From contig JACPTC010000046.1 of the NCBI GenBank assembly GCA_016192985.1, positions 1-45,783 of the forward strand: a stretch of DNA of 45,783 bases, written 5' to 3'. The position numbers were made by a program, and so were the translations under genes. The notes below the pieces were generated by a model that did not search any database, was not told the DNA's origin, and was given only the letters and a program-made list of their open reading frames with translations. This DNA is from Candidatus Woesearchaeota archaeon (lineage in GTDB: Archaea; Nanobdellota; Nanobdellia; Woesearchaeales; GW2011-AR4). The number at the start of each line of letters is the position of its first letter. Within the stretch, counting starts at the first letter, position 1. Below, one piece after another: positions 3 through 32,166 of the stretch.

Positions 3-3000
3 CCAAATGCAACCTTTACCACACCTGCAGATACAAGTTTATACACTAACAGGTCCACAACAACAACACAATCTATCGCCTTTAATGTTGATGATACCGA
101 TAGTACAGGACTCAATCTACCAGCTAACAACTCAATTAATGTAACCATCACAATAGGTTACAGAAACGCTAATGGCAGCTTTATAGGAGGAAGTCAATAT
201 GGGCTTTTAAGCTTCTTTAACAGCACAACAACTAATTTAACATGTACAACAACTGACACTTTAAGCTTGCAAAATACCACAAGAATAACCTGTAATACTA
301 GTATTGCATTGACTTCAAACGGCACTTACTTAATCAACATAAGTGGCAGGGACACAAGCAACAACAGCAATGCAATGAATTTGACAACTAATATAATATT
401 CGTAACCATTGACCAAATACCCCCCCTATTTGCGTATTATAACTTTACCAATGCATCATCTGTTAATATGACTGAATCAACAGCATTACAATTAGGAACG
501 TCAGCAGGCGCATCAAGAGCCCAAGGACCCAATTCATCAGTTATATATGCAATTTCAAACTGGACTGATAACCTGACATCTCCATTCAGAGGCCTGCTGC
601 AATTTTACAACGAGACTCCTACAGATACTGCTTCAAGATGGCAAACTTTAAACCAGTCAGATATAGCTTATCCTGCATTTAACACTTCAAATTGGCTGAA
701 CTTTTCATTCCCAATACCAACAGGACACAATGAGTTTGAAGGCAAGAACGTTAGCTTCAGGATTGTGGCAAACGATACAGTTGGAAACGTAAATACATCC
801 AATCAGGTTAAGAATTTCACAATTTTGATTAACGATACCACAAAGCCAACATTACTAGTTACAATAGTAGACGGGCAAGGTGCAGTTAATAATTCAAATA
901 TAACCGATGCAACCCCCACTGTAGTTTGGAATGTCACAGAACCAAACAAATTTAAGTACATAGCAGTACAAATTAACTCCCTGACAGATCCAAACTGTAA
1001 TGGATTCAGAAACTTCACTACAACAGTAGAATCAAACAGAAATAACACTTTAACTTTGCTTGACACAGGTGGATGTACGGGCTTAGGAAATGGCACAAAT
1101 ACCGTCAGACTAACAGCAGAGGATACATGGAGCAATTCTGAATTATACATACATAGCTTTACTATGCAAAGCGGAGTCACGCCTGTTATATCTTTGACTG
1201 GTTTATCCCTTGATCCACTTAATTTTAGTGCTGTAAATACAACTAATGTAACAAGCAGCACGGGCATTAACTTTTCCGCTACTGTTGCATCAACAACCAC
1301 GCTCAAGAACTTAAGCTTTACATCAAACTGCAATTCAACCGGGGGAACGTTTGCTGCTAACAGCACTATAAGGCCATTCCAGGACTCATGTGTAGGAACA
1401 TCAGCAAATCGAACTATTACAGTTACTGCATCAGACTTTGCTGGCAATACAGTCGCTAATACACTCCAATTTTTAGTCGACGATGTGGCACCTTCACTTG
1501 CCGTACAGCTCCCAACTCAGGGAAGCAGCGTTGCAAATAATGTCCCTCTTAATGTAACTGTTCAAGATAGCTCATTGTCAATATCTTTTGTCGGATATTA
1601 TCTTGATGACTTTGGAGTAACCCAATTGAATTTCACTGCAGGCGGTGCAGGGCATGGCAATGCAGCAATTAATACAAGCTATAATCGCTCAATTAATTTC
1701 ACTCCGGGTACTCACAGAATAAAGTTCACAGCCAATGACACACTTGGCAATACAGTTAACAGCAGCGTTATAACGTTTACAGTAACTGGTCCTGTTGTAT
1801 TCCTCGAGGTTAACAGAAGCATAGAGAGTTATATCGCAACAGTATTCAATAACAACATGACAAATGTTAGTACTAGGATACTAACTGATGTAGGTTATAT
1901 TGATTTAAACACCACAAACGAAACAGCAGGAAATACATTTGAATTATTATTCCAGATAAATGGAAGCATAAATGTCTCGTTGACAGAACTAAATGGCTCT
2001 GCTGCCAACTGGAACAAGATTAACTTTACGCCTTATGTAAACCAAACAAGCTTTGTCCCAGGATTGCAGAATAACTTTACAAATACAATCCTAAGCTCTG
2101 TATGGTTCAACAATTCTCTTGAAGAATTTATAACTCTTAATAACTCATATTATGGTGTTGTTGTGTTCTCATTAAACATTTCCGGAAATACGGCAACAGC
2201 CCAAGAATTCTGGTGGGTTGAAAACGAAGGTACATTGAATTCAAAGACCAACATAAGCCAGTGCACAAGCGCATTCACAAGAGCAACAACAACCCCGTGC
2301 TGGAACTATACTGCTAATGGCAAAACAATTATCCAAGTGCCACACTTCAGCATAGTTGTTGCAGTTAATGATAGCATACCGCCAACAGCAGTAATAAACA
2401 CCCCTGCATCACCACAATATGTTTCATCATTCGCGCCAAATGTAACCGTATCAACAGATGCAATTAACTGCTCATACTTAATTGATGTGACGAATGTGTC
2501 AGAGACTGCAATGACTAAAACTGGAACTGAGTGTATAGGTTCGTCAATAACGAGCCTAACAAATGGCTCCGAGCACAACATTACAGTAAGAGCGTATGAT
2601 GCAAGAGGAAACAAGAATGAAACCTCACTATTATTCACAATCAGTGATTTAACACTCCATACAGCAGCCATAAGCGACAGCAGCGGCTCGACAACTGGCA
2701 CTACAGTAAGCCTGACAGCAAATGAATCAGTTAATATGTCGCTTAGATATGGTGCTGCTGTTTCAAGCGCATGCACAACAATGGCATCAACTGCAACCCC
2801 AGAAACAGACTTTTCAAAGAGCCAATCAATTGCAATCAGCCTTTCAACAGTTACAAGCGATACTGTAATATGTTATAACGTCACATCCTGTGATAAAGCA
2901 GGCAATTGCCTAACAAACGGTTCATTTAACTTTACACAAAGTGCCACAGCAGCCGCAGCAGCAGCCGCAGCAGCATCGTCATCCTCATCAGGAGGAGGAG

Positions 3001-23536: not shown

Positions 23537-23627
23537 CGGGCCAGGGAGGATTCGAACCCCCGGCCTACAGCTTAGAAGGCTGCCGCTCTTTTTGGTAGTT
23601 GATATATCCAAGCTGAGCTACTGGCCC
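23537..23627 (-). tRNA. tRNA-Arg (anticodon TCT) with D-loop intron
   Basis: The minus strand gives a full cloverleaf: acceptor GGGCCAG/CTGGCCC, D stem GCTC/GAGC, anticodon stem GCAGC/GCTGT with loop CTTCTAA (anticodon TCT, Arg AGA/AGG), variable loop AGGCC, T stem GGGGG/CCTCC with loop TTCGAAT, discriminator G. The gene is 91 nt; removing a 16-nt insertion in the D-loop (23590-23605) restores a normal D arm, AGCTTGGATA between the stems. No CCA is encoded. Confidence 0.93.
23590..23605 (-). other. 16-nt intron in the D-loop of tRNA-Arg
   Basis: Insert ATATCAACTACCAAAA. A 4-bp helix TTGG/CCAA is flanked by 3-nt bulges ATA and AAA; cutting after the second base of each bulge, as the archaeal splicing endonuclease does, removes exactly this insert and leaves a canonical D arm. 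The junction is in the D-loop near position 20/21 instead of the usual 37/38. Confidence 0.8.
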
Positions 23628-29447: not shown

Positions 29448-30482
29448 TTATTTTTTTTGTATGTTCCTCTCCAAGCATTCGGCAATTTTTCCGATATCTC
29501 CGGCATTTTGTTGAAGAAACTCGTTTAATTGAGTAGCAACTTTTTTTAACATTTCTGTAACAGCCGCATTGTCCAGATATTGTCTATTTTGTTTTCGTTG
29601 GTACTCTATCCCTTCCTTTTCAAAAGGGGATTTTGGTTTAAGAGTTTTTGTTAATAAATCAAGGTCGTAAAAATAAAGATTTCCAACAGCTTCTATGTAT
29701 TCATCACTTTTAGGTCCGAATTTAGGATGCGCTTTTAATCTTTTTATTGTATCTATCCATGCTATTGAATCGTCTAAAGCAGTAACAGTCTCATCTGAAA
29801 TTTGTTTTTCAACTGTATGGTCTATCTTTAAGCTGCCTAGCCTCATTCCTCCATAACCATGCCTGCCGTGTACCTTTTCATGCTCTAACCATACCTGAGC
29901 TAATTCTTCACTCCCATCGAAAAAAGCAGACTTCACAAATACATATTGTTTTTCATTTCTGCCCATCATTCTAAGACTATACAACAATCCCGCCACCGTT
30001 GATTCATCTAATAATTTTTTTTGAAAATTCATGATATTTTGAGCACTAGGTTTCATGCATGCTTTAAGCGCATCTTTTTGACGAGCATCAAGTTGAGGGT
30101 AGAGAGTTCCTATATATTGAGCCAAAATGTCTTCAAGTTTTGGGTCTTTTATGTCATCAGGATTTACAAGCCCTCTAGCAACAAGTTCTTTCCCATAAGC
30201 GGCTATTCGCTCCCCTTTTGGGTCATAAATCAAGCGTTTTACATAAGGTGAAGGATTATCACGAAGAAGTTGATCAAGATATCGTTGCTTTAGAACCTCA
30301 TCTCCTTTTGCAGCCTCTGAGTATGTTATTTTTCTAATTTGCGTTGGGTCAGCTTTTTGGGCGTTAGCAACGATACTATCTATATTTGCCGCTGCTCTTC
30401 CTTCTAAAACACTCTGATCCACCCCTAAAACTAAGGCTAATCTGCCGGTAGTTTTTAAAAAACCCCTTCTATCTTGATACAT
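29448..30482 (-). CDS. Predicted exported HExxH metalloprotease-like protein (Tat signal)
   Basis: 344 residues. The N-terminus MYQDRRGFLKTTGRLALVLG fits a twin-arginine signal (RRGFLK then a mild hydrophobic stretch). A single HExxH motif lies in WLEHEKVHGRHG (His201, Glu202, His205, with His208 nearby), suggesting a zinc peptidase or similar hydrolase. The rest is helical with no other known domain. The start is fixed by a TATA box GATTTAAATATC (30502-30514), which predicts a leaderless transcript at the ATG at 30482; the frame extends five codons further. Tat genes are not in the window. Substrate unknown. Confidence 0.7.
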   Translation of the reverse strand: MYQDRRGFLKTTGRLALVLGVDQSVLEGRAAANIDSIVANAQKADPTQIRKITYSEAAKGDEVLKQRYLDQLLRDNPSPYVKRLIYDPKGERIAAYGKELVARGLVNPDDIKDPKLEDILAQYIGTLYPQLDARQKDALKACMKPSAQNIMNFQKKLLDESTVAGLLYSLRMMGRNEKQYVFVKSAFFDGSEELAQVWLEHEKVHGRHGYGGMRLGSLKIDHTVEKQISDETVTALDDSIAWIDTIKRLKAHPKFGPKSDEYIEAVGNLYFYDLDLLTKTLKPKSPFEKEGIEYQRKQNRQYLDNAAVTEMLKKVATQLNEFLQQNAGDIGKIAECLERNIQKK

Positions 30483-30501
30483 GAAAGTTAACAACAACTA
30501 T

Positions 30502-30592: not shown

Positions 30593-30603
30593 CATTTATA
30601 TAC
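30593..30603 (+). promoter_or_regulatory. TATA box of the dnaG leader
   Basis: CATTTATATAC; expected transcript start about 30624, exactly where the first stem (30625) begins. A second TATA-like TTTATATAG lies at 30542-30550. Confidence 0.55.
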
Positions 30604-30624
30604 TTGAATATGTTACCAGATTGA

Positions 30625-30896
30625 AGCCCGTCACGAGAGTACCCAATGGAGCTCACGATAAACTCAAGCAATGAGCTTGGGAGTTAGTGTAGCGGGCTGC
30701 AAAATTTAATAGTTAAGAGAAGCATTTAGAACAGGATTATCATCATTGTCATTCATTAATTATGGCTGATTTGCAGGAATAGCCTATTAAGATAACCTAA
30801 AAAGTAACTTGTTCTAAATGTTTCAAAAACAGGGAAGCTATCATGTTCATCAACCCAATTCACTCAATTAATGAATTTGTTGATTAGGTTAGCTTC
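30625..30896 (+). ncRNA. Multi-hairpin leader of dnaG (or separate ncRNA)
   Basis: Three consecutive strong folds. Fold 1: AGCCCG (30625-30630) pairs with CGGGCT (30693-30698), extended by CAC/GTG, enclosing a hairpin AACTC-AAGC / GCTT-GAGTT. Fold 2: perfect 11-bp CATTTAGAACA (30723-30733) with TGTTCTAAATG (30810-30820), with TTATC/GATAA and GGCT/AGCC inside. Fold 3: GAAGCTA (30834-30840) with TAGCTTC (30890-30896) enclosing ATCAAC/GTTGAT. Fold 3 ends 10 nt before the dnaG Shine-Dalgarno. No tRNA, SRP or RNase P signature is visible. It may be a regulatory leader or contain an independent RNA gene. Confidence 0.5.
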
Positions 30897-30918
30897 TTCT
30901 TTAAACAAGGTGGTTAAT

Positions 30919-32166
30919 ATGGGAAAGATTAGCCCTGTAGCGGCAAAATACATAGTGCATGCAAACATAGAAATAGAAGGTGTGGTTGACAGGCCAGACG
31001 TAATTGGCGCTATTTTTGGCCAGACAGAGGGACTTCTTGGCGCTGACCTAGAGTTAAGAGAATTGCAGAAGTCAGGAAGAATTGGAAGAATAGAAGTCAA
31101 CACAGAGACAAGAACAGGAAAGACAAAAGGCACAATTATAATTCCGTCATCACTTGACAAAGCAGAGACATCTATTGTGGGAGCTGCTTTAGAGATAATA
31201 CAGCGTATAGGGCCATGCAACGCAAAGCTTGATGTTACTAATATAGAAGACATAAGAATAAGCAAAAGAAGCATGGTTATTGAAAGAGCAAAAGAGTTGC
31301 TCAAGAAAATGATGGAGAATACAATGCCAGACTCCCAGGAGCTTGCAGATGAGGTAGCTGCATCTGTTAGAGTGATGGAGATAGTTGAATATGGAAAAGA
31401 CAGACTGCCGGCAGGTCCTGCAATAGAAGAGAGCGATGAAGTTACAGTGGTTGAAGGAAGGGCAGATGTGCTTAACCTGCTGAAGCATGGCTTTAAGAAT
31501 GCCATCGCCATTAACGGCACTTCTGTGCCAGAAACAATAGTGGAATTATGCGGCAGAAAGGTTGTGACTGCTTTTGTTGACGGCGATAGAGGCGGAAATC
31601 TAATAATTAAGGAGCTGACTTCAATTGCTGACATAGATTTCGTTACAAAGGCGCCTGACGGCAAAGAAGTTGAGGAGCTGACAAAGAAAGAAATACACAA
31701 GGCATTAAGAAGCAGGATTTCTGGCGAACAGGCGAAGCTGGAGCTTTCTAGAGAGACGGACAGAACATCTATGGAACTTGTCAAAAGGCAGCCCAATATT
31801 CAGCACCAGCAATTCCAAAAACCCCAAATGCAAAGGCCATATCAGCCTGTGCCTAATCTGAGAAGAATTCAAATTTCAAATGAGGAGAAAAACATATTCA
31901 AGTCTATGCTGGAAGACTTAATAGGCACAAGAGGTGCTGAAATACTTGACGCTAAGCTTTCTGTACTCGGGAAAGTTCCTGTAAGCGAGATACAAACTGC
32001 CTTGAAAAGCATAAGCAATGCTCATGCCGTTGTGTTTGACGGCAGCATAGAAAGAGAGTTTGTGAAGGCTGCGGAAGAAACCAATGTAAAGTTCCTAATT
32101 GGGATGGACTCAAGGGTCAGGCAGAATGAAACAAGAGTCAATTTATTGACAGTCAACGAGCTTTGA
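30919..32166 (+). CDS. dnaG: Archaeal DnaG (primase-like, exosome-associated)
   Basis: 415 residues. MGKISPVAAKYIVHANIEIE is the typical archaeal N-terminus, followed by the DnaG N-domain and a TOPRIM domain with VVEGRADVLNLL and AFVDGDRGGNL (metal-binding Glu and Asp). A Gln/Pro-rich linker (IQHQQFQKPQMQRPYQPVP) leads to the C-terminal helical domain. In archaea this protein associates with the RNA exosome and binds A-rich RNA; primase activity is weak or disputed. AAGGTGG at 30907-30913 sets the ATG at 30919, not the open frame from 30871. Preceded by a long structured leader. Confidence 0.95.
   Translation: MGKISPVAAKYIVHANIEIEGVVDRPDVIGAIFGQTEGLLGADLELRELQKSGRIGRIEVNTETRTGKTKGTIIIPSSLDKAETSIVGAALEIIQRIGPCNAKLDVTNIEDIRISKRSMVIERAKELLKKMMENTMPDSQELADEVAASVRVMEIVEYGKDRLPAGPAIEESDEVTVVEGRADVLNLLKHGFKNAIAINGTSVPETIVELCGRKVVTAFVDGDRGGNLIIKELTSIADIDFVTKAPDGKEVEELTKKEIHKALRSRISGEQAKLELSRETDRTSMELVKRQPNIQHQQFQKPQMQRPYQPVPNLRRIQISNEEKNIFKSMLEDLIGTRGAEILDAKLSVLGKVPVSEIQTALKSISNAHAVVFDGSIEREFVKAAEETNVKFLIGMDSRVRQNETRVNLLTVNEL

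Follow-up and report, generated by a model that had tools for sequence, protein, structure and literature searches.

A probable H/ACA guide RNA hairpin at the head of the dnaG leader in a Woesearchaeota archaeon and its relatives

The dnaG gene of Candidatus Woesearchaeota archaeon is preceded by a long structured leader, the first fold of which (element A) we hold with considerable confidence to be an H/ACA guide RNA hairpin, most likely directing the pseudouridylation of helix 69 in 23S rRNA. This fold is not mainly a dnaG switch. The structure of element A, its distribution, its linkage to dnaG and the tracking of target by guide were all read from the comparison of related sequences. The element represents an RNA family absent from Rfam and present in the majority of the genomes sampled from a large group of small archaea, and this family gains a testable target in the subunit bridge of the ribosome. 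Coordinates refer to the window, that is, the whole 45,783-nucleotide stretch analysed (contig JACPTC010000046.1 of assembly GCA_016192985.1), and features lie on its plus strand unless stated otherwise.

The dnaG leader and its promoter

The downstream gene, dnaG (30919..32166), was recognized by its reading frame and by Pfam Toprim matches; it encodes 415 amino acids including the Toprim domain and is preceded by a Shine-Dalgarno-like AAGGUGG (30907..30913). The leader, 301 nt long, has a folding energy of -77.2 kcal/mol (z = -3.7), and none of 100 shuffled sequences was equally stable. A preliminary description had placed three folds ahead of dnaG (30593-30918), and all three are there, with z scores against shuffled sequences of -3.4, -4.4 and -2.6 for folds 1, 2 and 3, respectively.

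A TATA box (TTTATATA) is located at 30595..30602. In the window's genus and many other lineages this box begins about 30-32 nt 5′ of P1, the first stem, and from this recurrent placement we conclude that the first fold is very probably where transcription begins, which supports the transcript start near 30624 proposed earlier. The intergenic region is shared with a divergent gene encoding 349 amino acids (29448-30497, minus strand), the product of which has no Pfam match.

Scanning the leader against Rfam revealed no matching family, the matches being at chance level and three of them minus-strand snoRNAs. RNase P RNA and SRP RNA were ruled out as identities of fold 1, both being found elsewhere in this genome. 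At a different site in the window (23537-23627, minus strand) Rfam recognizes a 91-nt tRNA that was missed by ARAGORN and possibly contains an intron.

Anatomy of element A

The covariance model of element A, designated R1, has its sole match in the window at 30625-30703 (100 bits, E 3e-25). The structure was set by hand on an alignment of 15 diverse copies and the pairs were then counted: 96% of the cells are paired and 24 are changed on both sides, a number reached by none of 500 shuffles and far above that of all slid controls. P1, P3 and the apical hairpin were also recovered independently by RNAalifold. Energy folding gives fold 1 inner hairpins that are wrong, the comparative data showing P3, a kink-turn and a small apical hairpin in this place.

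The 5′ strand of the lower stem P1 (GCCCGU + CAC, 30626..30634) pairs with 30687-30689 and 30692-30697, and double changes are found among the copies; the "6-bp plus 3-bp" first stem of the preliminary description is exactly the comparative P1a (GCCCGU/GCGGGC) and P1b (CAC/GUG). It is followed by the 5′ guide strand, GAGAGU (30635..30640), and by the upper stem P3 (CCCAA, 30642..30646), which pairs with UUGGG (30677-30681) and changes on both sides in three of its five pairs. Above P3 lie the kink-turn and apical hairpin (30649..30674). The kink-turn residues are near-invariant, GA-GC (30649-30652) facing GC-AAU-GA (30668-30674; GC-NAU-GA among the copies), while the pairs of the apical hairpin (30657-30665) covary and its length is very variable. 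The 3′ guide strand, AGUUA (30682..30686), is conserved as RGUUA. One base past P1 is the position of the ACA-type box (30699..30701), occupied by ACA or AUA in most copies, by GCA in the window, and by TCA, CCA or AAA in some relatives.

We compared this anatomy with the published rules for the lower stem, pocket, kink-turn and ACA box of archaeal H/ACA RNAs (PMC4652768). The covarying lower stem of 9 bp, with its 2-nt bulge, agrees with the rule of 7-9 bp, and the GA stem, with 9 layers by sequence (9-10 is also given), lies within the rule of 8-11. The distance from the closing pair to the box is 17 nt, or 15 nt without the bulge, where the published range is 14-16; this spacing counts against a guide, as does the GCA of the window in the place of an ANA box. 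A Cbf5 family domain was detected in the window's genome.

Distribution and linkage to dnaG

In a DNA search of 39 relatives, most genomes of the genus yielded the whole leader, with approximately 71-77% identity. Other families, whose DnaG is some 64-74% identical, yielded only the first fold, with approximately 73-92% identity. Of 371 genomes of the phylum, 233 contain a match to the R1 model, nearly always as a single copy, and other orders of the class are represented among them; across the class element A is nearly always situated just upstream of dnaG. In other orders P1 has been swapped wholesale with its pairing kept (for instance GCCUAGUAU/AUACUAGGC in L145), and most of the pocket is unchanged. 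The stems of the preliminary description were found conserved among relatives to different extents: fold 1 class-wide, fold 2 in most of the class and fold 3 mainly in the window's order.

In the loci checked, dnaG follows element A immediately and in the same orientation, with only a handful of exceptions. Three of the exceptions (L152, L157 and L158) are weak or cut matches; one, L087, is a good match. This extra guide copy (genome G100, 1501-1580, minus strand) is intergenic and possesses its own TATA box, with no gene just downstream on the same strand; it adjoins a Na+/H+ antiporter-like gene and an SbcC/Rad50-like gene, both on the other strand. In genomes G030 and G133 the dnaG leader is without element A yet contains hairpins like fold 2, and in G268 the 5′ half of the element has been lost. 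Since dnaG leaders without the guide exist, as does a copy away from dnaG, the two are linked but separable. Of the 21 genomes with no match to element A, 18 also have no detectable dnaG; G030, G133 and G268 are the other three. Neither was detected in many assemblies, among them G014, G029, G046, G110, G114, G116 and G134, some of which are rated 95-98% complete. Among named genomes, Woesearchaeota archaeon BM511 (L102) carries a genuine element A with dnaG downstream; the other four pattern matches look like chance.

Helix 69 as the probable target

The pocket strands GAGAGU and RGUUA are complementary to 5′-UAACU-AUA-ACUCUC-3′ of helix 69, with the 3′ guide strand facing UAACU in the loop (5 bp) and the 5′ guide strand facing ACUCUC (6 bp). 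This pairing leaves a gap of three bases instead of two, that is, three open bases or one bulged. A third unpaired base has been reported as unfavourable and counts against element A as a guide. U1915 and U1917 of this helix (E. coli numbering) are universally conserved pseudouridine positions and are known in archaea (PMC2584109).

In a scan of the whole rRNA, complementarity to helix 69 by itself was no better than that of shuffled guides, and we therefore turned to concerted change of guide and target. GAGAGU guides occur with ACUCUC in the window's order, and GAGAAU guides with AUUCUC in other orders. The guide fits its own helix 69 type better in 30 of 32 genomes, the remaining two being ties; for two rows belonging to family f72 the helix 69 sequence was taken from sister genera. 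The GAGAG guides of this family, which is part of another order, predicted ACUCUC, and this sequence was then found in four genomes, three of which have GAGAG guides themselves. On the DnaG tree guide and target change three times each, with only one change forced by well-supported branches; the co-change thus amounts to between one and three events. The 23S helix 69 of the window's genome is absent from the assembly and was represented by that of G016, a member of the same genus. Immediately 3′ of helix 69, right after TTAAGGT, the 23S sequences of L118, L121, L122, L124, L129, L130 and L132 depart from the conserved TTAAGGTAGC, which suggests introns inserted at this site.

A second hairpin in other families

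Other families of the order possess an additional 5′ H/ACA hairpin, which the window's genus is without. It lies about 85 nt upstream of the guide (L053, L041, L060 and others) and ends in ACA directly before GCCCG, and the two strands of its lower stem show compensating variation (UUAUGCAA/UUGCAUAA, UUACGCAA/UUGCGUAA and UGCCCAA/UUGGGCA). The target geometry first assumed for this hairpin gave no rRNA target; a systematic bipartite scan subsequently matched it to the A-loop of 23S rRNA (GGGGGUGU-UC-ACCCAUU) over 15 pairs, with none of 300 shuffled guides as good. The target would be what we take, by our own reckoning, to be U2555 in E. coli numbering. A compensatory change is seen in G102, where guide AAUCGG faces target CCGAUU, versus AAUGGG and CCCAUU in the others.

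Elements B and C

The second fold, element B (30728..30815), is a hairpin with arms AGAACAGG (30728-30735) and CUUGUUCU (30808-30815) and a loop that starts with a YCAY-rich segment (30736-30760). Unlike the lower stem of a guide, the arms (AGAACAAG/CUUGUUCU) keep their sequence, the few changes being C-G to U-A and A-U to G-U. Of 101 leaders scanned by a script, 95 gave a B-like stem, which in a minority of cases was spurious; over these 95 the loop start contains 239 YCAY motifs, as against 62 in shuffles. In many genomes the element ends 20-60 nt ahead of the start codon, and it persists where element A is lost. The conserved arms, the YCAY-rich loop, the closeness to the start codon and the survival without element A together suggest that B is a protein-binding element of the dnaG leader. 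We rejected B as a further H/ACA hairpin: its arms are sequence-conserved, its 3′ side is variable, and there is no consistent ANA box after it. Nothing convincing was found by way of complementarity between B and rRNA.

Element C (30834..30896), the third hairpin (GAAGCUA...UAGCUUC), also has a loop containing YCAY and was defined by its fold and by hairpins resembling it in other families of the window's order, the order to which it appears confined; in style it is similar to B. B is a better candidate for the control of dnaG than fold 1, and DnaG may regulate itself through B and C, two conserved, YCAY-rich hairpins that are linked to dnaG and lie near its ribosome-binding site. Together they putatively define a second regulatory leader.

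Alternative readings of the first fold

The preliminary description had favoured self-regulation by DnaG and offered an independent noncoding RNA in fold 1 as the alternative. The evidence favours this alternative; self-regulation finds no direct backing in fold 1, whose conserved pocket tracks 23S rRNA. A cis-acting control element of dnaG with no guide in it, whether a riboswitch or an autoregulatory site bound by DnaG or the exosome, would go well with the nearly strict linkage across the class and with the joint lack of fold 1 and dnaG in those 18 of 21 genomes. We nevertheless judge it improbable, because it would have to accommodate pocket bases that follow the rRNA, an H/ACA anatomy next to another H/ACA hairpin with an A-loop target, dnaG leaders lacking the fold, and one extra copy elsewhere. 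The tracking of rRNA by the pocket could also arise if the leader were a decoy that mimics helix 69 and captures an rRNA-binding protein, as in the autoregulation of ribosomal proteins, since GAGAGU equals the 5′ strand of that helix and a mimic would follow the rRNA likewise. The 3′ pocket strand, however, complements the helix 69 loop and bears no resemblance to it, the neighbouring hairpin matches the A-loop by complementarity on both sides, and the kink-turn and ACA box are left without explanation; this reading we regard as very unlikely indeed.

More serious, if still doubtful, is the proposal that fold 1 is a guide whose RNP also controls dnaG, for example by L7Ae or Cbf5 binding at the 5′ end of the mRNA or by exosome-dependent processing. 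The guide has long been retained at the start of one mRNA and has the promoter immediately before it, which favours such a dual function, and L7Ae has been proposed as a regulator of archaeal mRNAs (PMC5539422); B and C are kept at dnaG where A is lost, though, and the linkage may simply reflect a shared promoter. A more elaborate form, to which we give somewhat less credence, would make the dnaG mRNA a dual transcript maintained throughout the class, with the guide RNP at its 5′ end matured or spared by the exosome, a subunit of which that mRNA encodes, while B and C tune translation. If true, ribosome modification and RNA decay would be coupled in one dnaG transcript.

Proposed mode of action

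As a guide RNA, element A would be transcribed together with the dnaG leader from the TATA box at 30595 and would form the 5′ end of the dnaG transcript. L7Ae would bind the kink-turn, and Cbf5-Nop10-Gar1 the lower stem and the ACA-type box. The open pocket would pair with helix 69 and offer U1915 and/or U1917 to Cbf5 for conversion to pseudouridine. A reasonable route of processing is that the guide RNP protects the hairpin while the mRNA is trimmed or undergoes 3′-5′ decay. B and C, probably bound by protein, would act as separate leader elements near the ribosome-binding site and control the expression of dnaG.

Comparison with known systems

The bacterial genes rne and pnp, which function in RNA decay, have autoregulatory leaders. 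Like dnaG they combine a long structured leader with a gene for an RNA-decay complex, and they are a possible analogue for elements B and C. In Haloferax volcanii both helix 69 pseudouridines are reportedly guided by one hairpin of the H/ACA RNA sR-h45; a single guide for U1915 and U1917 would fit this case and also the three-base gap. Locus and organism are different.

The H/ACA sRNAs of Pyrococcus (PMC4652768) share with element A the lower stem, the pocket, the kink-turn in the upper stem and a GA stem of 8-11 layers, and with most copies of it the ACA-type box. Element A differs from them in the 2-nt bulge of its lower stem, the 17 nt to the box, the very variable apical hairpin, and its site at the 5′ end of the dnaG transcript. 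An H/ACA sRNA of Nanoarchaeum equitans consists of two kink-turn hairpins with only ACA between them (PMC3491384) and resembles the two-hairpin form found in other families of the window's order; it is situated away from dnaG, with the tyrosyl-tRNA synthetase gene on one side and a hypothetical gene on the other. A guide kept for so long at the head of the mRNA for an exosome subunit suggests a host-gene arrangement like that of the snoRNA host genes.
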